Assembly (NCBI GenBank): GCA_021324435.1 | Contig: JAJPIZ010000005.1 | Location: forward strand, 1-64,000 | DNA: 64,000 nt | Direction of reading: 5' to 3' | Source of the DNA: Anaerolineae bacterium | GTDB taxonomy: Bacteria; Chloroflexota; Anaerolineae; Anaerolineales; Villigracilaceae | In this document: piece after piece, positions 2,068 to 43,644 of the stretch | Layout of the letters: every line of letters starts with the position of its first letter | How positions within the stretch are numbered: position 1 is the stretch's first letter | Program-made: the position numbers and the translations under genes | The notes under the pieces: generated by a model | Told to the model about the DNA's origin: nothing | The model's input: only the letters and a program-made list of their open reading frames with translations | Databases searched by the model: none

Positions 2068-3294
2068 TCACTGCCCCCACTTCATTTGAAATGCAAAATC
2101 GGGGGAGAGTGGGATGGAACGTCCATCGGGGTATTCAACATACGGCACGCCGCCCTCGTATACATCCTGGATCGGCGCATAGGCGACGATGGCAAAACTC
2201 GCGTCCGGCGCCCATAAAATTTCATTTATGTCCTTGAACTCATCAGGTCGCAATTGAGTCCGCCCGGTGACTCCATCGGAGGCGGACCTCACCATGAACA
2301 ACGGCGTATGACCCGAAGTCGGAATCTCCTTCAGGTTGTTGAAAAAGAAATACAACTGTGCGTCCGGTCCAACAATGGGTGCATCCGCGAAGTTGAATGT
2401 TCCATCCGGCGCGCCGCCCGGCAGAAGGATACTCACCTCGCCGTTTGTTGCGTTGGCATACAACAGCCCCGAATCGATCATACCGGTCGTCGGGCTGGCG
2501 GCATACACGCCGCCGCTATCCGGCGTCCATGAGGTGTTGCAACAGAACATCCCTCCATCAGGGCGGTTGAGTTTGGTCATTGTGTTGTTGCCGAGGTAAT
2601 AAATACCCATCGTCCCGCTTTCGGAATAGCCGATGTTGATGAGCAGTTTTGTTCCATCCGGCGAATACTTGACGGGCGCGTAAATGGCCCTCACCATCAG
2701 AAAGCCGGCTGAATTATCCAGGTCGTTGATCAGCACCTGCTTGATCGCGCCGCTGTCCAACGAATAGAAGTTCAAACCGTTGTAAGCAAAGGCAATTGTC
2801 TTTCCGTCCGGAGACCAGACAGGCGTGCCCACACTGTTGGTCAAGCGGTTTGTATCAGTGAGAGGTCCGCCGTCCACGAGTACGCGGCGTCCCGCGCCGT
2901 TGGCATCCGCTAAAAGCATCTGGTTGTTGGACGTGTAGACTATACTGCCATCCACGGGCGAAATATCAAATGTGTTCACTGCCGAGGGCTCAAAGGTGAT
3001 CTGATGCACGGTCTTCCCATCGCGTTCGAGACGGAAGATTTGCAATTCCCCGCTGGGATTTCCGTTGTTGAGAAAATATAAAGAACGCGGGAGCAGGTTC
3101 GAGGTCGCGGTGGGCGCGGACGTTGCAGGAACAGGCGAGGCAAATGGAGTCGCCGCGGGAGTCAGCGCCTGCATGGTTTGCGCGACAATGGTCCCCACCT
3201 GATCTTGTGTCAGTGTCGGGGCCGCGGCCCCTCCGCAGGCTGAGGCGACCGCTGAGAATAACAACAATGCGACAAAAGCACGAACGCGGTTCAT
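2068..3294 (-). CDS. Secreted lipoprotein with TolB/WD40-like beta propeller
   Basis: A 408-residue protein with a lipoprotein signal peptide: basic start, hydrophobic core, and lipobox VASAC giving a lipid-modified Cys near residue 20. A short Ala/Pro/Thr linker follows, then repeated propeller blades with PD40-type turns such as WSPDGKTIAFAYNG and YSPDGTKLLINIG. Such propellers usually bind proteins or ligands outside the membrane; no catalytic motif is visible. The Shine-Dalgarno AGGAG is made by the stop codon region of the preceding c-di-AMP-receptor-like gene, eight bases upstream, so translation is probably coupled. It is the last gene of the leaderless operon that starts at 6321. Confidence 0.8.
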   Translation of the reverse strand: MNRVRAFVALLLFSAVASACGGAAAPTLTQDQVGTIVAQTMQALTPAATPFASPVPATSAPTATSNLLPRSLYFLNNGNPSGELQIFRLERDGKTVHQITFEPSAVNTFDISPVDGSIVYTSNNQMLLADANGAGRRVLVDGGPLTDTNRLTNSVGTPVWSPDGKTIAFAYNGLNFYSLDSGAIKQVLINDLDNSAGFLMVRAIYAPVKYSPDGTKLLINIGYSESGTMGIYYLGNNTMTKLNRPDGGMFCCNTSWTPDSGGVYAASPTTGMIDSGLLYANATNGEVSILLPGGAPDGTFNFADAPIVGPDAQLYFFFNNLKEIPTSGHTPLFMVRSASDGVTGRTQLRPDEFKDINEILWAPDASFAIVAYAPIQDVYEGGVPYVEYPDGRSIPLSPDFAFQMKWGQ

Positions 3295-3302
3295 TCCGAC
3301 TC

Positions 3303-3566
3303 CTACACTTGTTCGAAGCGCGCCACGGGGACAACAAACAACGTTGCCCGCTTCTCTGCAGACCCTGAGGCGGTCACCGTTTCACGGACCAGTTTGATCG
3401 CTGAATCGACTTGCGCGTCCTCGACGCCGATCAGGAGCGTAGCGACGCCGCTCCGTAAAAAGCCGCCCGTGGAGGCGATGCGCGTGACGCGATACTCCGC
3501 GCTCGTCAAAGCACGCGTAAGGGCGTCGGCTTCACTGTCTTTGACAATCAGGATAATCATCTTCAT
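3303..3566 (-). CDS. Short c-di-AMP receptor-like (DarA/PstA, CdAMP_rec) protein
   Basis: An 87-residue PII-like protein. It matches the DarA/YaaQ pattern: a first strand MKMIILIVKDSEADALTRAL, then VTRIASTGGFL, then LLIGVED, and a final strand ending LFVVPVARFEQV. In DarA the TTGGFL loop contacts cyclic di-AMP. The long loop and the VGGATVF strand of DarA are missing here, and the DarA Asn after TGGFLKSG is Val, so nucleotide binding is uncertain. GGAGG lies seven bases before the ATG at 3566; an ATG at 3572 overlaps the previous stop as ATGA and is also possible. It is paired with the long paralogue just upstream. Binding of c-di-AMP is an inference from the family. Confidence 0.85.
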   Translation of the reverse strand: MKMIILIVKDSEADALTRALTSAEYRVTRIASTGGFLRSGVATLLIGVEDAQVDSAIKLVRETVTASGSAEKRATLFVVPVARFEQV

Positions 3567-3568
3567 GG

Positions 3569-3904
3569 TCATACCTCCTCGAATCGCTCTACAGGCAAAG
3601 CGAACACCGTTGCGCCGCCAACCGTCACCGGCACAGGCGCGGGCATCGGCAGGGGCGACCCCTCCAGCGGCATGGTCAGATATTCCACGCGCTGGCGGCA
3701 GGATTCGCGCAGAACTTTGAGCGCTTCCTCTTCACGGCCTTCGGGCAGGCCGATCAACAACGTCGCATTGCGCCGGCCAAGAAAGCCGCCCGCGCTCGCC
3801 AAATAGACGACTTGCGCGCCCAATGGTTCCAGAGCGCGTGTCGCCGTATCTGTGTCTTGATCTTGAATGACAGCCAGCATTAAGAGATGAATCGGCGTAG
3901 TCAT
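3569..3904 (-). CDS. Long c-di-AMP receptor-like (DarA/PstA, CdAMP_rec) protein
   Basis: A 111-residue protein of the same PII-like fold. It keeps more of DarA than its short neighbour: VIQDQDTDTA, ASAGGFLGRRNATLLIG with the Asn that follows the GGFL turn, a middle segment CRQRVEYL, and the terminal VTVGGATVFALPVERF strand found in B. subtilis DarA. This makes it the best nucleotide-binding candidate at this locus. It resembles the C-terminal domain of the antiporter at 18574-18900 more than the short paralogue beside it (shared CRQRVEYL and VTVGGAT). SD AAGGAG. It lies 38 bases after the hydrolase gene and overlaps the short gene by four bases if that starts at 3572. Confidence 0.9.
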   Translation of the reverse strand: MTTPIHLLMLAVIQDQDTDTATRALEPLGAQVVYLASAGGFLGRRNATLLIGLPEGREEEALKVLRESCRQRVEYLTMPLEGSPLPMPAPVPVTVGGATVFALPVERFEEV

Positions 3905-3942: not shown

Positions 3943-6321
3943 TTAAGTAGCAGAAATTACCAACGGGCCAACCTCTGTAACCTCCGCTCTTTTTCCATTT
4001 GGAAAGGTCACTTCTGTTTTATCCAGCCCGCGTACCACTTTTAAACCCTTGTATTGAATCGTCACCGGCCACGCAAATGGATTCTTTCCTTCCAGTCGGA
4101 CACAGGTGGATGAACGGATGCTTACGCCCAGCGTTTGCAGGAAGAGGCCGACGGGGGCGAGTCCTTTCAACGCGCCGCGCTCACCGATCCCGGCTCCGGT
4201 TTCCGCGTGGTAGCGTTCGTAAAATGCGCGGCTTTGCCTGAGGCTTTGAATCGCCGCGTTCATCAAATGCACGGTGAGACGCGCGGCCTCGTTTCTGAAT
4301 CCATAAAAGAGAAGACCTTCGCCGAGCAATTGATTCCAGGGCAGGTGAACGCTCATTGCCACGGAGTCCGCTTCACGGTCCGGGATGAACGAGAAAGCCG
4401 GAACACCGAAAGGGCGGTCAAAGCGTTCCGCGTCCAGCAAGGAACGCGCGATCATTACTTGCGCGAGCTGGTGATCCGGGATGCGCGCCCACAGCGGGGT
4501 GAAGAGCGTGATGTCCTCGGCGGTTGTGTCCACGGTGCGGATGATGACTCTATCATTTTCGTCGAGGCCCGTGACGCTGATGCGCCCGACTTTTGAAAAG
4601 ACCTTTTGGCTGGTTGCCACCAGGCCGCCGCTCCGCCACTGAAAGCGATGCTCTTCAACGATCTCAGACTCGCCTTTGGCTTTGGTGGTCAGTTCGCAGA
4701 TTTCGACGACGGGCCGTTCCGCCGCGGGACTTTTGGTTTGCACCTCGATTAATAAGCGCACTAGCGTCTCGAACTCTTTTGCCGGACGCATGTTTCCGGA
4801 ACCTTTATGTTTTGCGATGAGTTTACCAGGCGTAGATTGTTTGGTGGCGCGGTCACGATATAAATACAGCGCGGCACGCGCATCCCAACTGGCCTCGACC
4901 GAGGAGCGAAGCGCGGCGGCCTGTGCGTGAAGCGGAGCGAGCTGATCGGAGTGTCCAAGTTTTTCGGCCATGCGAATCAAACACGCGGCTTCGCGATACA
5001 ACATGGCTTCCAGCGCGGGATTGTTCAAGGCGGCGATGTCCACGCCCTGTGACCAGGGATGCCACACATCGAAAATGGGATGATCGTCGAATCCGGTTTG
5101 CAGAACGTGATCCCATTGAGGGATGCCATCGCGGTCGGGATCATGTTCGGGCGAGAACCAGTTCCAGAAGAACTTTGTGAGTTTTGGAAAAACGTCGGCG
5201 AGGAAGGACTCGTCTTGAGTCTCCTCGTAATAATTCCAAGCGAGGCTGGCCAGCAAAGGCGCGGCGAGAAATTTGGCGCGCTGGCCGCTCAGTCCCGGCC
5301 TGCCATCAACGAAACCATCTTCGTTTTGAACGTGAAGAAAATTTTCGATCAAGCCGCGTTTGAACTGGCTTGCGGTGGAAAGCAGGCTGGCAAGATAATA
5401 GGTTTCGAGCGGGGATTGTCCGCTCCAGGCGGGCGGATAATCTGTGCCATCGCCTTTGTGTGAAAAACCGCTGTCCGGCTGGCGAGACTGCACAAAGGAT
5501 GGATTGGGTAAATCCTGGCTGGCTGGATAAAACAAGCCAAGCGCGGTTCTTTGACTGAACGCCAGCGCCGCGTCCCAGTTTGAATCGCCGGTGCGGATGT
5601 CGAGCACGTCACCCGCGTCCACGAGTTCGATGCGGGCGCGTTCCGCATCCCACGGACGAGCGGCGGTGCGGCGCGCTAAATCGAATGAGTCCTCGGCTGA
5701 ATCTTGCGCGGCCAGCGTCCACGTGATTACGCGCGTACTGCCGGGGTCGAAATCGAGATCAATCATCAGTGATGGATGAGGCCCGGGTCCGGGTTGAGGG
5801 CTGCCGGTCATGAAGAGAACCGGGGCCAGTCCGCTGGTTTGCCCGGCAAGGATGTTGACCATCTGCTGTTGCGCGGGTGCCAGCGATTGACCTTCAAGAG
5901 GAGTCAGCGCGCCGCACAGCTCGAAATTCAATTTGCGCGCAAAAGAGGCGCGATTGGAAATGGTCAAGCGTCCCGCGATGACATGCGATTCCGGAACCCA
6001 ATATTCGGCTGTGGTTTCAAATCCTTCAAACGGCGAGAAACTCAGCCAAAGAAAATTTGGGTAAAAACGGCGCAGGCGCGGCGGTGCGTGAAACTCAGAT
6101 GGGTTGGCAACGACCCTGCCCGATTCGTTGAACCGGTAAAAGAGGCGCATGGCGCGGGCGCGCAGTCCATATGTGGTGCGGATGGCCAGCGCGGCCGGTT
6201 CCCCTGCGCCCATTTCCAATTCCCAGATGTGATCGTTGAGATAATCGGGTTTGCATAAACGCGTATCCGCCGCGATGATGAGGGAAAGCGGATCGCCTGC
6301 CTGAAGTGACCAGTCGCGCAT
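3943..6321 (-). CDS. GH63/MGH1-like (alpha/alpha)6 glycoside hydrolase
   Basis: A cytoplasmic-looking 792-residue enzyme with no signal peptide. The N-terminal third is beta-rich, like the sandwich domain of trehalase and GH63 families. From about residue 260 to 500 it has the alpha/alpha barrel pattern of mannosylglycerate hydrolase (MGH1)-like enzymes: NEDGFVDGRPG, FFWNWFSPEHDPDRDG, QWDHVLQTGFDDHP and DVWHPWSQG. The acidic residues in these motifs are candidate catalytic groups. Substrates of relatives include glucosylglycerate, mannosylglycerate and alpha-glucosides, so a role in compatible-solute or glycogen turnover is possible. That would fit the ion-stress theme of the operon, but this is inference. 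The transcript appears leaderless. Confidence 0.8.
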   Translation of the reverse strand: MRDWSLQAGDPLSLIIAADTRLCKPDYLNDHIWELEMGAGEPAALAIRTTYGLRARAMRLFYRFNESGRVVANPSEFHAPPRLRRFYPNFLWLSFSPFEGFETTAEYWVPESHVIAGRLTISNRASFARKLNFELCGALTPLEGQSLAPAQQQMVNILAGQTSGLAPVLFMTGSPQPGPGPHPSLMIDLDFDPGSTRVITWTLAAQDSAEDSFDLARRTAARPWDAERARIELVDAGDVLDIRTGDSNWDAALAFSQRTALGLFYPASQDLPNPSFVQSRQPDSGFSHKGDGTDYPPAWSGQSPLETYYLASLLSTASQFKRGLIENFLHVQNEDGFVDGRPGLSGQRAKFLAAPLLASLAWNYYEETQDESFLADVFPKLTKFFWNWFSPEHDPDRDGIPQWDHVLQTGFDDHPIFDVWHPWSQGVDIAALNNPALEAMLYREAACLIRMAEKLGHSDQLAPLHAQAAALRSSVEASWDARAALYLYRDRATKQSTPGKLIAKHKGSGNMRPAKEFETLVRLLIEVQTKSPAAERPVVEICELTTKAKGESEIVEEHRFQWRSGGLVATSQKVFSKVGRISVTGLDENDRVIIRTVDTTAEDITLFTPLWARIPDHQLAQVMIARSLLDAERFDRPFGVPAFSFIPDREADSVAMSVHLPWNQLLGEGLLFYGFRNEAARLTVHLMNAAIQSLRQSRAFYERYHAETGAGIGERGALKGLAPVGLFLQTLGVSIRSSTCVRLEGKNPFAWPVTIQYKGLKVVRGLDKTEVTFPNGKRAEVTEVGPLVISAT

Positions 6322-15195: not shown

Positions 15196-15227
15196 TTGTA
15201 GAGGCGTAACATGTTGCGCCTCTACAA
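15196..15227. repeat. Palindrome TTGTAGAGGCG/CGCCTCTACAA
   Basis: Eleven-bp inverted repeat with a 10-nt loop. The stop codon of the HD-GYP gene (15222-15224) lies inside its right arm. It resembles a dispersed repeat and may act as a terminator for that gene. Confidence 0.6.
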
Positions 15228-16070
15228 TTTGATCTTCTTCGGTGTTTGCGCGACGAAATCCTGAATCACTTCCAGGTTCGCCTCCGGCTTTACATCATCG
15301 GGCTTCCCTGTATTTCCCGTAAACTCAGCGGTAAACGTACTGCCTTGCGCGTGAAGCCGGTGCTCGCCCGTGCAGGTGTGACAATATCGAATGTCGCCGT
15401 CCCGCGTCTCGCGCGTGACCGTGATGATCGCTCCGCAAGTTGGGCAGGGCACGAGCGGAATCCCCTCGTCGCTGTGCGCGACGATGTGCGCCAATTGATC
15501 TTTTCGATTCAGCTCCTTCATTCCATTCACGATATTTGAATCGAAATGAGAACCCGCGTCCTGTTCGAGGCGCGCGAGCGCATCGCTGATCGGGAGACCC
15601 TTGTGGTAGGGGCGCTCGCTTGTCATGGCATCGAACGCATCGGTAATGGCGACCAGCCGCGAGGGAAGTGTGATGCGGTCTCCATCCAAACCAAACGGAT
15701 ACCCTTTTCCATCCAATCGTTCATGATGATGCAGAATCACATCCAATACCAATGAGGCCAGCGGATGCGCCTCGATTAATTCTCCGCCGATGGTCGGATG
15801 CGTTTTGAGCGTTTCGAACTCAGCCGCCTCCAGTCCGCTCTTTTTGCGCAGGATACTATCTGAAATTCCGACCTTGCCGAGGTCGTGCAAAAAGGCTGCG
15901 ATGGCGGCTTGCGCGCTTTCATCGTTTGAAAGACCGAGTTGCTTCGCCAGCAATTTTGTAAATTGCGAAACGCGCCACACATGCCCGCCTGTGTATGTGT
16001 CACGCGCCTCGATCACATCGCCCATGATGAGCAGAGATTTGAGCAGTGCCTTGTCAACGTCAACATTCAT
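15222..16070 (-). CDS. HD-GYP domain protein with C-terminal zinc ribbon
   Basis: A 282-residue soluble protein. The HD-GYP domain has HDLGK at residues 62-66, the conserved HHH at 114-116 and DGKGYPFG at 120-127, the signature of enzymes that hydrolyse cyclic di-GMP. After about residue 210 a small ribbon carries CPTC and CHTC, likely to bind one zinc. There is no sensor or receiver domain, so the input is unknown; the ribbon may mediate binding. It is divergent from the methyltransferase-like gene, with a 54-base AT-rich spacer. Confidence 0.85.
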   Translation of the reverse strand: MNVDVDKALLKSLLIMGDVIEARDTYTGGHVWRVSQFTKLLAKQLGLSNDESAQAAIAAFLHDLGKVGISDSILRKKSGLEAAEFETLKTHPTIGGELIEAHPLASLVLDVILHHHERLDGKGYPFGLDGDRITLPSRLVAITDAFDAMTSERPYHKGLPISDALARLEQDAGSHFDSNIVNGMKELNRKDQLAHIVAHSDEGIPLVPCPTCGAIITVTRETRDGDIRYCHTCTGEHRLHAQGSTFTAEFTGNTGKPDDVKPEANLEVIQDFVAQTPKKIKL

Positions 16071-16952: not shown

Positions 16953-17001
16953 TTAATTCGTTTATACTTCGTATTGTTATTTTTTGATTCCGAGAGATTC
17001 G

Positions 17002-18903
17002 ATGAACGGTCAGGAAATTGTTCTGGTCGAGGAAGTCATCATTGCGTTGTTATTGATCGCATCTGCAGTGGCTGTAGGCGCGCGCCAGCTGCGCTTGCCC
17101 TATACAGTGGGGCTAGTGCTGATTGGCCTGGCGCTGACATTGGTAAGCCCGCAGCGCGTGGAACTCTCACCGCAAATCATCCTTGCTCTACTCGTTCCGC
17201 CATTGGTATTTGAGGCGGCTTTTCACATCCGTCTGGAAGATTTGCGGCGTGACCTGTGGTTGATTCTCTTACTGGCTGTGCCGGGCGTTATCCTCACCAC
17301 ACTGATGGTTGGCGGTCTGGTCTCGTGGGGAACCGGCTTGATATTGCCAGCGGCCCTCGTCTTCGGCGCGCTGATCGCCGCCACAGACCCGGTGGCTGTT
17401 GTGGCTTTGTTCCGCCGTCTCGGAGCGCCACGCCGGCTTCAGGTCTTGCTTGAAGGCGAAAGCTTGTTTAATGATGGGACGGCCATTGTGATGTTCGGCC
17501 TCATGCTGGACATCGCAATGAGCGGTCATTTCGACGCGGCCATCAGCGTGGCGAATTTTTTGAAGATCGCAGGGGGCGGTATCTTGATCGGTATTGCATC
17601 GGGGACGCTGATTTCGCAAGTCATTGGCCGTATTGAAGATCCGCTGGTGGAGACCACCCTCACAACCGTATTGGCTTTTGGGTCTTATCTGGTCGCTGAG
17701 TCATTGCATGTCAGCGGCGTATTGGCCGTGGTCGCGGCGGGAATTGTCAACGGCAACGTTGGACCGCGGGGCATGTCAGCCACGACCCGCGTGGTTGTTT
17801 TCAATTTCTGGGAATATGCGGCCTTCCTTGCCAACTCTCTGGTCTTCCTGCTCATCGGCCTGAGTATTGATCTGAGCGCCATCTTCCAGAACTGGCAGGC
17901 AATTGGCTGGGCAATCCTCGCTGTATTACTGGCGCGCGCCGTCAGCACGTATCTCTTCCCAGTCTTCGGCAATGCCATCCCCGCCAAGTGGAAACACGTG
18001 TTGTACTGGGGCGGTCTACGCGGCGCCATTACACTGGCATTGGCGCTCGGTCTGCCGGATACAGGCATCTTTGCCACGGAACGTCTTCATCTGCAGGCCA
18101 TGGCCTTTGGCGTTGTGCTCTTTACGTTGCTCGTGCAGGGCTTTTCCATGGACTGGCTGATCAAACGACTGAAACTGGTGCAACGCTCACAGGTTCAGGA
18201 GGAATACGAGCGCAGACACGCGCGTTTTGTGGCAGGCCGCTCCGCGTACGATTATCTGCATCGTCGCAGTCAGGAGGGGCTGATCTCGGAACATATCTGG
18301 CAGAGAACAGCGCCCCTGCTTCAGCGCCAAAATGAACTGCTGGTGGATGCGATGAAGGAAATCATCTCATCTGACCCGGCAGTGGAAGCGGAGGAACTGG
18401 ATACCATCCGGCGCGAGGCGTTACGTGCACAGCGCGCGGCCCTGATCGGTTTATTGAGAGACGGCGTGATTTCAGAGGAAACGTATTCGCAACTGGTCGG
18501 TGAAATAGATGCGGCGTTGACTGAGGAGAATCTGGCCTGGCCCGAACTCAGGCGCAGCGTCAACGCGCCGCATCATGCCATCTCGCGGTTGATGGTTGTG
18601 GTGATCCAGAAAAGGGATTTTGAAAACGCCATCGGTGCGTTGACCAAGCTCGGCTTTACCATTGCTCAATTGCCCAGCACTGGAGGTTTCGTGGATCACG
18701 CAAGTGTCACGTTGTTGATTGGTATGCCCGAAGGCCGCGAAGATGCCGCGGTGCGCGCCTTGAAGAACAGTTGCCGCCAGCGGGTAGAATATCTGTCGTC
18801 ACCACTTCCAAACATTCCCGAAGCAGTCCTCGCTCCCACCAAAGTCACGGTAGGCGGAGCCACTATTTTTACTTTCGAGGTCGAATCCTACGATGAGTTC
18901 TGA
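17002..18903 (+). CDS. CPA1 cation/proton antiporter fused to a CdAMP_rec domain
   Basis: A 633-residue membrane protein. About 12 membrane segments span residues 1-390, with the CPA1 signature AATDPVAVVAL and then EGESLFNDGTA, which holds the ion-binding acidic residues. Residues about 395-520 form a charged helical cytoplasmic region. Residues about 525-633 form a complete c-di-AMP receptor-like domain: RLMVVVIQKRDFENAIGAL, PSTGGFV, LLIGMPEGRED, CRQRVEYL and VTVGGATIF. This is the same PII-like fold as the protein at 3569-3904. The likely function is Na+ or K+/H+ exchange gated by cyclic di-AMP, an inference from c-di-AMP control of potassium transport in other bacteria. ATG at 17002 is chosen; a TTG at 16984 is possible. 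It overlaps the next gene by 11 bases. Confidence 0.9.
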   Translation: MNGQEIVLVEEVIIALLLIASAVAVGARQLRLPYTVGLVLIGLALTLVSPQRVELSPQIILALLVPPLVFEAAFHIRLEDLRRDLWLILLLAVPGVILTTLMVGGLVSWGTGLILPAALVFGALIAATDPVAVVALFRRLGAPRRLQVLLEGESLFNDGTAIVMFGLMLDIAMSGHFDAAISVANFLKIAGGGILIGIASGTLISQVIGRIEDPLVETTLTTVLAFGSYLVAESLHVSGVLAVVAAGIVNGNVGPRGMSATTRVVVFNFWEYAAFLANSLVFLLIGLSIDLSAIFQNWQAIGWAILAVLLARAVSTYLFPVFGNAIPAKWKHVLYWGGLRGAITLALALGLPDTGIFATERLHLQAMAFGVVLFTLLVQGFSMDWLIKRLKLVQRSQVQEEYERRHARFVAGRSAYDYLHRRSQEGLISEHIWQRTAPLLQRQNELLVDAMKEIISSDPAVEAEELDTIRREALRAQRAALIGLLRDGVISEETYSQLVGEIDAALTEENLAWPELRRSVNAPHHAISRLMVVVIQKRDFENAIGALTKLGFTIAQLPSTGGFVDHASVTLLIGMPEGREDAAVRALKNSCRQRVEYLSSPLPNIPEAVLAPTKVTVGGATIFTFEVESYDEF

Positions 18904-19174
18904 CGCGATGAAGTTGATTCTGGCGATTGTCCCCGATGGGGATAAAGAGCAGATTCTGGATGCATTGACAAAAGCCGGTTTCCAGGTGACGATGATCGCA
19001 TCCACGGGCGGCTTCCTTCGGCGCGGCAAGGCTACCTTGTTGATGGGCGTCGAGAGGGAGAAAGTGCAGGATGCGATTCAATTGATCCGCGAAAACAGCA
19101 CGCCCGCCATTGACCCTGAACTGAAACGGGCGGTCATCTTTGTTCTGAAAGTAGATCGGTTTGACAAGCTTTAG
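18893..19174 (+). CDS. Short c-di-AMP receptor-like protein
   Basis: A 93-residue PII-like protein: MKLILAIVPDGDKEQI, VTMIASTGGFLRRGKATLLMG, and a final strand IFVLKVDRF. Like the 87-residue protein at 3303 it lacks the DarA VGGAT strand, and the Asn after the GGFL turn is Lys. It starts inside the antiporter gene, 11 bases before its stop, so translation is coupled. The true start may be the second ATG at 18908. As a short paralogue beside a long domain, it could form mixed trimers with the antiporter tail. That is inference from the trimeric state of DarA. Confidence 0.88.
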   Translation: MSSDAMKLILAIVPDGDKEQILDALTKAGFQVTMIASTGGFLRRGKATLLMGVEREKVQDAIQLIRENSTPAIDPELKRAVIFVLKVDRFDKL

Positions 19175-19186
19175 CATCTCGAAAGG

Positions 19187-20383
19187 ATGATAGCAAAAGT
19201 CATGAACCATACGGCGGAAATATTTCTTGGGCTTTTCATCGTTTTCTTCGCCGCGCAGGTGGGAGCGGAAATCGCACAACGCCTGAAACTGCCGGCTGTG
19301 GTGGGCGAGATCACCGCAGGTTGTGTGGTGGGTGCATCGGTGCTGGGCTGGGTGAAAGTCAATGAACCGCTTGAAGTGTTGGCCGAGATTGGAGCGATCC
19401 TCCTGCTTTTCTCGGTGGGACTGGAAACGCGCCTCGATGATTTGACTCGCGTGGGGCGTTTGGCGGTTGTGGTCGGTTTGGGCGGTGTCCTCCTGCCGTT
19501 CGTGCTGGGAGCCGCATGGGGAATATTCAATGGATTCGATACTCCGAAAGCCCTGTTCATTGCCGCCTCCTTCGTAGCGACCTCGGCAGGGATTACGGCG
19601 CGTGTCCTCAAAGACATGGGTGTTCTGAACCAGACCGTTAGTCGTGTGATCCTCGGCGCGGCAGTCATTGACGATATCCTCGCCATGTTGCTGTTGGCCA
19701 TCGTCACCGCTCTTCAGGGTGGAGAGGAAATCAATTTCATCAGCCTGTTTCTTGTCTTTATTCAGGCAGTTGCCTTTGTGGTTTTGATTGCGCTGGTAGG
19801 TTCGCGCTTTATGCGCCGCTCCTCCGCCTGGCTGGAAGTTCCCATCAACCCGCTTTCGCCACTGACCATTTTGCTGGCTCTGTGTTTGGGGCTGGCACTG
19901 GCCGCCGCTGTGCTGGGACTGGCCGCCATCATCGGTGCGTTTCTGGCAGGCATGGTGGCCGCGGAGACTCAACAACGGCACACGCTGGAAAAACAATTAC
20001 AGCCAATCATGGCTTTCCTCGTTCCGTTCTTTTTCGTGGTGACCGGTGCGAAAGTCAATCTCGGAGATTTGGGCAGTCTCTCCGCGCTTGGCTCGCTGGC
20101 AGTTGTTACTCTGCTTGCCATCATTGGAAAACTGCTTGGAAGCGGTCTGGGCGCACTTCCACTCGGCAAGAAACCCGCGCTGATCGTGGGCACAGGCATG
20201 GTGCCGCGCGGCGAGGTGGGAATTATCATTGCCAGCCTCGGGCAGGAGGCCGGTATTTTCACGGGCACGACGTATGCCATCATCATTGCCATGTCTCTTT
20301 TGACCTCGGTCATCGCGCCGCCCGCGCTCGGCGCGCTGTTGGCCCGCGAGCCGCGCGAGCCAGAGGAGCCAGCAGATGAATGA
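19187..20383 (+). CDS. CPA2 (KefB/NapA-type) cation/proton antiporter
   Basis: A 398-residue membrane protein with about 12-13 membrane segments. The CPA2 core is visible: FFAAQVGAEIAQRLKLPAVVGEI at the N terminus, the discontinuous helix region AGITARVLKDMG, and AAVIDDILAML with the paired Asp residues of electrogenic members. It has no C-terminal TrkA-N/RCK nucleotide-binding domain, ending soon after the last helix in a Glu/Pro-rich tail, so any gating must come from a separate protein such as the gene just upstream. The start may be ATG at 19187 or 19202. The gap to the previous gene is 12 bases. Confidence 0.9.
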   Translation: MIAKVMNHTAEIFLGLFIVFFAAQVGAEIAQRLKLPAVVGEITAGCVVGASVLGWVKVNEPLEVLAEIGAILLLFSVGLETRLDDLTRVGRLAVVVGLGGVLLPFVLGAAWGIFNGFDTPKALFIAASFVATSAGITARVLKDMGVLNQTVSRVILGAAVIDDILAMLLLAIVTALQGGEEINFISLFLVFIQAVAFVVLIALVGSRFMRRSSAWLEVPINPLSPLTILLALCLGLALAAAVLGLAAIIGAFLAGMVAAETQQRHTLEKQLQPIMAFLVPFFFVVTGAKVNLGDLGSLSALGSLAVVTLLAIIGKLLGSGLGALPLGKKPALIVGTGMVPRGEVGIIIASLGQEAGIFTGTTYAIIIAMSLLTSVIAPPALGALLAREPREPEEPADE

Positions 20384-43456: not shown

Positions 43457-43491
43457 CAATGTCGAATCAGACCCGCGCGGGGTCGTCATCA

Positions 43492-43625
43492 CCTTCTTCT
43501 ATCCAGACTTTTACTGTCGGCCCCGGAGTTTCACCGGGTCATGCGCTTGCGCGCTCGTGGGCTGTACCACCGATCGGGAATTCACCTGCACTTCGTGCGG
43601 TGCAAGTGGCACCCTGCCCCGAAGG
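43492..43625 (-). ncRNA. FMN riboswitch aptamer
   Basis: The minus strand carries the conserved FMN (RFN) elements in order: CCTTCGGGGCAGGGTG, GTGAATTCCCGATCGGTGG, AGCCCACGAGC, GACCCGGTGAAACTCCGGGG, CCGACAGTAAAAGTCTGGAT and the closing GAAGAAGG. P1 pairs CCTTC with GAAGG. With FMN bound, the terminator at 43424-43456 should form and stop the riboflavin transporter transcript. Confidence 0.95.
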
Positions 43626-43644
43626 TTGTTATTTGGTTGTGATT

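Follow-up and report, generated by a model that had tools for sequence, protein, structure and literature searches.

A cation/proton antiporter with a DarA/PstA-like tail and a shortened DarA paralogue as its proposed partner: a candidate divided c-di-AMP receptor in Anaerolineales

Can a DarA/PstA-type domain serve an ion transporter as its receptor for cyclic di-adenosine monophosphate (c-di-AMP)? The question is raised by a gene in a 64,000-nucleotide stretch of an Anaerolineae bacterium genome (GenBank assembly GCA_021324435.1, contig JAJPIZ010000005.1, positions 1 to 64,000 of the forward strand; hereafter the window), which encodes at 17002–18903 (+) a 633-aa cation/proton antiporter of the CPA1 family with a C-terminal DarA/PstA-like domain. 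Elsewhere c-di-AMP governs K+/Na+ homeostasis via other receptor folds. Passages of earlier work describe the characterised DarA/PstA proteins as homotrimers with three sites (PMC5575661), find in DarA no other domain that it might control and, in 2021, still call its function unknown (PMC7900238). We refer to the full-length type of CdAMP_rec protein or domain as FULL and to a shortened DarA paralogue as SHORT. We propose that the tail, which is of the FULL type, forms together with a SHORT protein a hetero-PII-like c-di-AMP receptor controlling the CPA1 antiporter. This reading, drawn from sequence and given slightly more than an even chance, is put forward because of the fusion itself, the predicted folds, the pairing of FULL with SHORT, the unfused pairs found behind antiporters, the relatives that have TrkA_C where the tail would be, the presence of a diadenylate cyclase and the division of the ligand contacts between the two proteins.

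The open reading frame (ORF) of the antiporter begins with ATG at 17002 and ends with TGA at 18903; an in-frame TTG upstream, at 16984, would add six residues. Pfam placed PF00999 (Na_H_Exchanger) on residues 17–388 (E 3.9e-70), and the NCBIfam equivalog TIGR00831 (a_cpa1) matched residues 12–504 with 332.4 bits, above its cut-off of 279.6, by which the protein is a member of the CPA1 family. The tail (18586–18900, +; residues 529–631) matched positions 2–107 of the 109-position profile PF06153, CdAMP_rec (E 6.9e-17, 62.1 bits, cut-off 27). In a phmmer search against PDB sequences the best match was Bacillus subtilis DarA (4rle, E 7.6e-14), followed by the Listeria and Staphylococcus PstA proteins, and the tail aligned end to end with the B. 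subtilis protein. An AlphaFold2 model of the tail (mean predicted local distance difference test score, pLDDT, 86) retrieved the PstA–c-di-AMP complex 4rww as the top Foldseek match (E 5.7e-9); VIA-align gave Z 12.9 both to 4rww_B (102 residues, root mean square deviation 2.9) and to 4rle, whereas chains of classical PII proteins scored Z 11.2 or less. Profile, sequence and predicted fold together confirm that the last ~105 residues are a complete DarA/PstA-type PII-like domain. The original prediction of a CPA1 antiporter whose last 109 residues resemble DarA/PstA is thereby upheld, the four motifs that it quoted all being present and the predicted fold matching that of DarA. The score of the DarA equivalog NF058593 over residues 529–633, 64.7 bits, lies far below its cut-off of 140, so the tail is a relative of DarA rather than DarA itself. 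Chance was ruled out as the source of the CdAMP_rec match by Pfam, phmmer, Foldseek and VIA-align, and an assembly artefact as the source of the fusion was ruled out because other genomes show the same architecture.

At its 3′ end, over the stop codon, the antiporter gene shares 11 nt with a SHORT gene (18893–19174, +) encoding a 93-aa DarA paralogue without the B′-loop and the GGA motif. Only profile positions 1–64 of PF06153 were matched (5e-23, 81.8 bits), the core being kept and the B′-loop region and GGA motif gone, and NF058593 scored 74.6 bits, again below the cut-off of 140. The predicted model of SHORT (pLDDT 89.6) has a PII-like fold. Foldseek ranked PstA first for this model (4rww, 3.8e-8), and in VIA-align PstA and classical PII stood nearly level (Z 13.2 for 4rwx vs Z 12.6 for a GlnK2).

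To what extent FULL and SHORT go together was assessed in 61 genomes of the window's order with the CdAMP_rec profile. Matches were present in 35 of the 61, and 34 of these 35 encode at least one FULL and at least one SHORT, counting as SHORT-bearing genome G437, whose SHORT fell below the Pfam cut-off and was clear by phmmer. The sole genome without a SHORT match, G436, carries a CPA1–FULL gene broken by stop codons (L079, G436:C73:37000-50000). Three genomes (G420, G431 and G442) have just two CdAMP_rec matches each, a fused FULL and a lone SHORT on another contig. A scan of named genomes was made from an 11-sequence FULL alignment, a 29-sequence set having proved too diverse, and its loci lean to sequences of the type [VI][TD][VI]GGAT[IV]F; the best 80 loci comprised 78 from Chloroflexota (49 Anaerolineae, 28 without a class label and 1 Limnocylindria) and 2 from Clostridia. 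The 78 Chloroflexota loci contain 83 FULL or fused ORFs, and 79 of these have a SHORT gene behind them in the same orientation, with at most 700 nt between the two stop codons. The four FULL ORFs without a following SHORT are all fusions (L108, L111, L115 and L117): at L108 the CPA1–FULL fusion is followed by a free FULL and then SHORT, the genomes of L115 and L117 have a FULL–SHORT pair elsewhere, and L111 appears to be the G443 locus, whose genome likewise has a pair elsewhere. Unfused pairs also occur in the named strains Anaerolinea thermolimosa IMO-1, Longilinea arvoryzae KOME-1 and Bellilinea caldifistulae GOMI-1. As judged from sequence, the FULL–SHORT pair is the unit in the window's order. 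The idea of a direct fusion of DarA to a transporter, as first put forward, thus stands as far as the domain is concerned and falls short in treating it as self-sufficient, the tail being one member of a recurrent pair. In one genome outside the order sample (G252, L193) a FULL and a SHORT domain share a single 296-aa ORF, a usual sign of proteins that act together, here in a single case. Variants of the arrangement include tandem CPA1–FULL/SHORT units (L076, G404) and two SHORT genes after one fusion (L073 in G437, L077 in G416, and L140).

The link to ion transporters goes beyond the window. CPA1–FULL fusions were found in 15 of the 61 order genomes (16 ORFs, of which one, in G402, is cut by a contig end), and SHORT is present in all 15. 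The FULL tail starts 514–553 residues past the start of antiporter homology in 28 of 30 fused ORFs; of the outliers, L068 is cut by a contig end and the start of L078 comes from a stray match. At four loci an unfused 517–520-aa CPA1 antiporter stands directly before FULL and SHORT, with a CPA2 antiporter there in several. Among 60 upstream neighbours scanned (59 of 68 picks plus the window's own; fused, short and opposite-strand picks were left out), Pfam identified Na_H_Exchanger (PF00999) in 10 and CitMHS-type transporters in 6. In the window, a CPA2-type cation/proton antiporter gene (19187–20383, +; 398 aa) starts 12 nt after the SHORT gene; PF00999 is its only Pfam match, and neither TrkA_N nor TrkA_C was matched.

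Three CPA1 relatives with 61–62% identity to the window's antiporter (L219, L221 and L223, from genomes G400, G409 and G424) have TrkA_C within residues 525–601, whereas no TrkA_C/RCK domain was matched by Pfam in either the CPA1 or the CPA2 antiporter of the window. Since TrkA_C (RCK_C) is, in a passage of PMC5575661, the fold by which Staphylococcus aureus KtrA and CpaA bind c-di-AMP, the tail position would hold either of two known c-di-AMP receptor folds. One of these relatives, L221, adjoins a CPA2-type gene. In a CPA1 tree, an unfused clade (L133, L153, L164 and L179) is sister to the fused L108 with starred support, and because these unfused antiporters stand beside a fused one, the tail was probably lost there; the free FULL–SHORT pair is still found beside each antiporter of the clade, and L108 is a possible intermediate between the two states. 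The tree is poorly resolved, with 14 of 35 inner branches starred and a very long outgroup branch, and it does not settle the number of fusion origins.

We then compared the residues that contact the ligand. In passages of two papers, c-di-AMP lies between two PstA subunits, one of which gives residues 26, 28, 47 and 108, and the other the GGFL loop (34–37), residue 41, the amide of residue 94, and residues 97 and 99 (PMC4316997, PMC4475381). According to parts of the same sources, binding by S. aureus PstA is lost or weakened in T28A, N41A and GGFL-AAAA (PMC4316997), and R26 of Listeria PstA is dispensable (PMC4475381). PstA without residues 71–87 is also described as still binding in lysates (PMC4316997), so the missing B′-loop need not stop SHORT from binding. 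The residue counts exclude L079, treat L104 separately and include sequences with the same last 80 residues once. T28 was kept in 29/29 canonical DarA, 53/88 unfused FULL, 16/28 fused FULL and 115/117 SHORT sequences, and N41 in 29/29, 76/88, 23/28 and 31/117, respectively. Position 108 is R or K in all 29 canonical sequences, and E in 56/88 unfused and 21/28 fused FULL; SHORT mostly has Q there (91/117). Of the FULL sequences, 87/88 unfused and 24/28 fused have G94, with K or R instead in 88/117 SHORT; unfused FULL further keep G34 (88/88) and F36 (82/88), and all 28 fused FULL keep R67 and F99.

The two sides of the site were also scored pair by pair. The test covered 109 adjacent pairs, 21 fused (21 of the 28 fused FULL had an adjacent SHORT) and 88 unfused; an intact first side was to have T or S at position 28 together with one of Q, H, R and K at position 108, and an intact second side an aromatic residue at 36 with N41 and G94. 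The first side was intact in 108/109 SHORT (20/21 linked to fusions, 88/88 unfused) and in 26/109 FULL (0/21 and 26/88), the second in 90/109 FULL (15/21 and 75/88) and in 1/109 SHORT (0/21 and 1/88). A composite site with SHORT as first and FULL as second side was intact in 89/109 pairs (14/21 fused, 75/88 unfused), and the opposite composite in 0/109; canonical DarA from Chloroflexota and Clostridia had both sides intact in 29/29. The pattern resembles duplication followed by division of labour.

Several observations weigh against a divided c-di-AMP receptor serving the antiporter. The definitions of the two half-sites were chosen with the column counts already known, the sequences share ancestry and so are not independent, and the canonical control set consists of the best-scoring phylum matches plus two Clostridia. 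Both sides are kept by 20/88 unfused FULL (0/21 fused), and a relaxed criterion of F36 and N41 lets 29/109 SHORT hold the site alone. The window's own fused pair is atypical in sequence and fits the split only in part: the tail has A28, V37 (GGFV) and S41 where one-chain binding would call for T28, N41 and GGFL, and its SHORT, with Q26, T28, GGFL, K41 and K108, also lacks that complete set. With A28 and S41 the tail alone is probably a poor c-di-AMP binder, and a negative assay of it in isolation could therefore be obtained from a genuine system; the original proposal of the isolated tail as a c-di-AMP receptor was right about the type of domain and overstated for this copy. Of the 60 unfused pairs scanned, 33, the window's included, stand behind a ~790-aa MGH1-like/trehalase-like glycoside hydrolase and not a transporter. 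Beyond the order, weaker CdAMP_rec matches were followed up in 30 chosen genomes of the phylum, where a SHORT-like match was found in 21 and stood beside a full-length one in 9 (L191 and L194–L200 among the loci), and in the list of best matches from the phylum many genomes are represented by just one match, of the canonical type; pairing is thus common but not general elsewhere in the phylum. Scored by eye, nine pairs from outside the order have the first side intact in 9/9 SHORT and the second in 8/9 FULL, with 5/9 FULL keeping both sides, and N41 is present in 18/20 outside SHORT. Because the split is weak there, pairing would have come first, and the site would have been divided mainly within the window's order. 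Outside the order, SHORT-type genes are also found with no FULL beside them (L201–L203, L206–L212), full-length DarA being encoded elsewhere in those genomes. Long CdAMP_rec ORFs in the phylum (L185–L191, 273–588 aa) were considered as further fusions and rejected, as their other parts had no Pfam match at E 0.001; they are read as open-frame read-through.

A different reading is that the tail is a docking platform without nucleotide binding, and that a SHORT homotrimer senses c-di-AMP and docks in a ligand-dependent way, like GlnK on AmtB. We consider this unlikely, if still the strongest competitor. Position 108 is never Q, H, R or K in the 28 fused FULL tails, 12 of which lack T28, SHORT keeps both features in 20 of the 21 fusion-linked pairs, and those SHORT proteins that pass the F36 and N41 criterion could bind alone. 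An intact second side (F36, N41 and G94) in 90 of 109 FULL is nevertheless hard to explain for a pure docking domain, and N41 is kept in 31 of 117 SHORT. It is far less probable that the fusion is a neutral remnant, with a degenerate tail, no regulation and a constitutive antiporter. A28 and S41 in the window tail and the broken fusion in G436 would suit such a history, as would the unfused clade sister to a fused protein, by which tail loss is probably possible; retention of the domain by 28 different fused proteins, all of which keep R67 and F99 and 24 of which keep G94, would not, nor would SHORT in every one of the 15 fusion-bearing order genomes or the free pair that the unfused clade keeps beside its antiporter.

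A receptor for c-di-AMP presupposes its ligand, and the genome encodes the diadenylate cyclase (DAC) that the original prediction looked to: a single DAC domain was matched (E 1.6e-40). The ORF that contains it has 289 aa and the next one 428 aa, and by sequence and order we take the two to be CdaA-like and YbbR/CdaR-like, respectively. DAC was found in 57 of the 61 order genomes. Counting further against c-di-AMP, the four genomes of the order in which DAC was not matched (G401, G407, G425 and G445), each a fragmented metagenome-assembled genome, all carry CdAMP_rec, and a scan of the window and of 11 of the 14 named fusion loci gave no c-di-AMP riboswitch. Those 11 loci had no Rfam element at gathering scores; the only hit in the window is a flavin mononucleotide (FMN) riboswitch (43487–43630, −; 86.6 bits), far from the antiporter. 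The FULL–SHORT complex might instead respond chiefly to an adenine nucleotide other than c-di-AMP, ATP or ADP for example, which we think quite improbable. The contacts are indeed altered, R26 being kept in 1 of 116 FULL and position 108 being E in 77 of 116, the predicted folds match classical PII as well (for SHORT, nearly as closely as PstA), and the four genomes in which no DAC was detected bear pairs. Set against this are the PstA-specific T′-loop, kept in unfused FULL by G34 and F36, the wide occurrence of DAC in the order, and the replacement of the tail by TrkA_C in relatives, although RCK domains can bind other ligands.

If the divided c-di-AMP receptor is what the pairs encode, FULL and SHORT would be subfunctionalised DarA/PstA paralogues joined in one PII-like hetero-oligomer on the cytoplasmic side of the antiporter. 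c-di-AMP would lie at a subunit interface to which SHORT gives the side of residues 26, 28, 47 and 108, and FULL that of GGFL, 41, 94, 97 and 99. A mixed trimer, 2:1 or 1:2, would have exactly one interface of the right polarity, so one ligand per complex would be expected, vs three in canonical PstA. CPA transporters are usually dimers, and in an antiporter dimer two FULL tails and one SHORT could complete a trimer, which, if true, would solve the mismatch between 2-fold and 3-fold symmetry. Ligand binding may then order the FULL loops and change antiporter activity. The direction of the effect is the least certain step: by analogy with other exporters under c-di-AMP control, high c-di-AMP might promote K+ or Na+ efflux, a suggestion we hold only tentatively. 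A broader possibility, in which we likewise place less than even confidence, is that a homotrimeric receptor was duplicated and split into half-receptors, FULL with the effector loop and one face, often fused to a transporter, and SHORT with the other face. Together they would make up an obligate hetero-PII complex whose trimer has one c-di-AMP site, an exchangeable cassette that in Chloroflexota would serve ion-transporter-superfamily proteins as well as CPA1 and CPA2 and perhaps an osmolyte-type glycoside hydrolase. Were the site divided in this way, subfunctionalisation would have run across a subunit interface, which is unusual for a receptor, and the expectation would be that the complex binds one ligand per trimer, its parts do not bind, and mutations on opposite sides act in opposite partners.

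The arrangement shares traits with several known systems. With DarA/PstA (YaaQ, Lmo2692 and SaPstA; PF06153, formerly DUF970) it has in common the family, the predicted fold, the GGFL T′-loop, N41 in most FULL, GGA94–96 and F99; it differs in being fused to a transporter, in being paired with a shortened paralogue and in the division of the site residues between the two. GlnB/GlnK heterotrimers are mixed trimers in which both paralogues keep complete sites. Such mixing of two PII paralogues in one trimer is reported in works cited in a passage of PMC5448240, and the action of a PII protein, GlnK, on a membrane transporter, AmtB, in part of PMC4475381; those are classical PII proteins with ATP, ADP and 2-oxoglutarate as ligands, and the transporter is unfused. 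S. aureus CpaA is, as a passage of PMC5575661 has it, also a cation/proton antiporter with a cytosolic c-di-AMP receptor domain, and the relatives of the window's antiporter with TrkA_C at the tail position resemble CpaA and KtrA. The window's antiporter itself has no TrkA_C of the CpaA type; its receptor domain is PII-like, not RCK, and would require a second protein. The domain, its mode of ligand binding and CpaA as a c-di-AMP-binding antiporter are thus already known. New, as far as searches of the open-licence literature show, are the DarA/PstA–transporter fusion, the SHORT partner and the divided site, none of which was seen there, most subscription papers and all bioRxiv preprints lying outside this scope. 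The relevant part of PMC4316997 lists three PstA orthologues each in Sphaerobacter thermophilus and Thermomicrobium roseum and does not mention pairs. The fusions and the gene pairs with cation antiporters point to K+/Na+ homeostasis as a target for DarA/PstA, and the fusion offers a system with effector and receptor in one polypeptide.

The original prediction missed the SHORT gene, the CPA2 neighbour and a second FULL–SHORT pair in the window, and the feature should properly extend downstream to 20383 and include that second pair at 3303–3904. The latter consists of a free-standing 111-aa FULL-type protein (3569–3904, −) and an 89-aa SHORT (3303–3572, −), whose genes overlap by 4 nt and which were recovered in the CdAMP_rec profile search. 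The whole genome has four CdAMP_rec matches, two FULL and two SHORT, all of them in the window. By eye, the second pair has the same split, with V28, N41 and E108 in FULL and T28, V41 and Q108 in SHORT. Upstream of it lies the gene for a 792-aa MGH1-like/trehalase-like glycoside hydrolase (3943–6321, −), a kind of gene often met next to unfused pairs in other genomes. The substrates of mannosylglycerate hydrolases are compatible solutes, and a compatible-solute hydrolase beside the pairs would fit osmotic c-di-AMP signalling, though the window protein matched solved trehalases only weakly. The second pair is immediately followed downstream by the gene for a PD40/propeller protein (2068–3294, −); among 52 downstream neighbours scanned, made up of the window's own and 51 of 62 picks (those left out being mostly short), 10 had PD40. 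An HD-domain (HD_5) protein with weak C-terminal zinc-ribbon matches is encoded upstream of the antiporter region in the opposite orientation (15222–16070, −).

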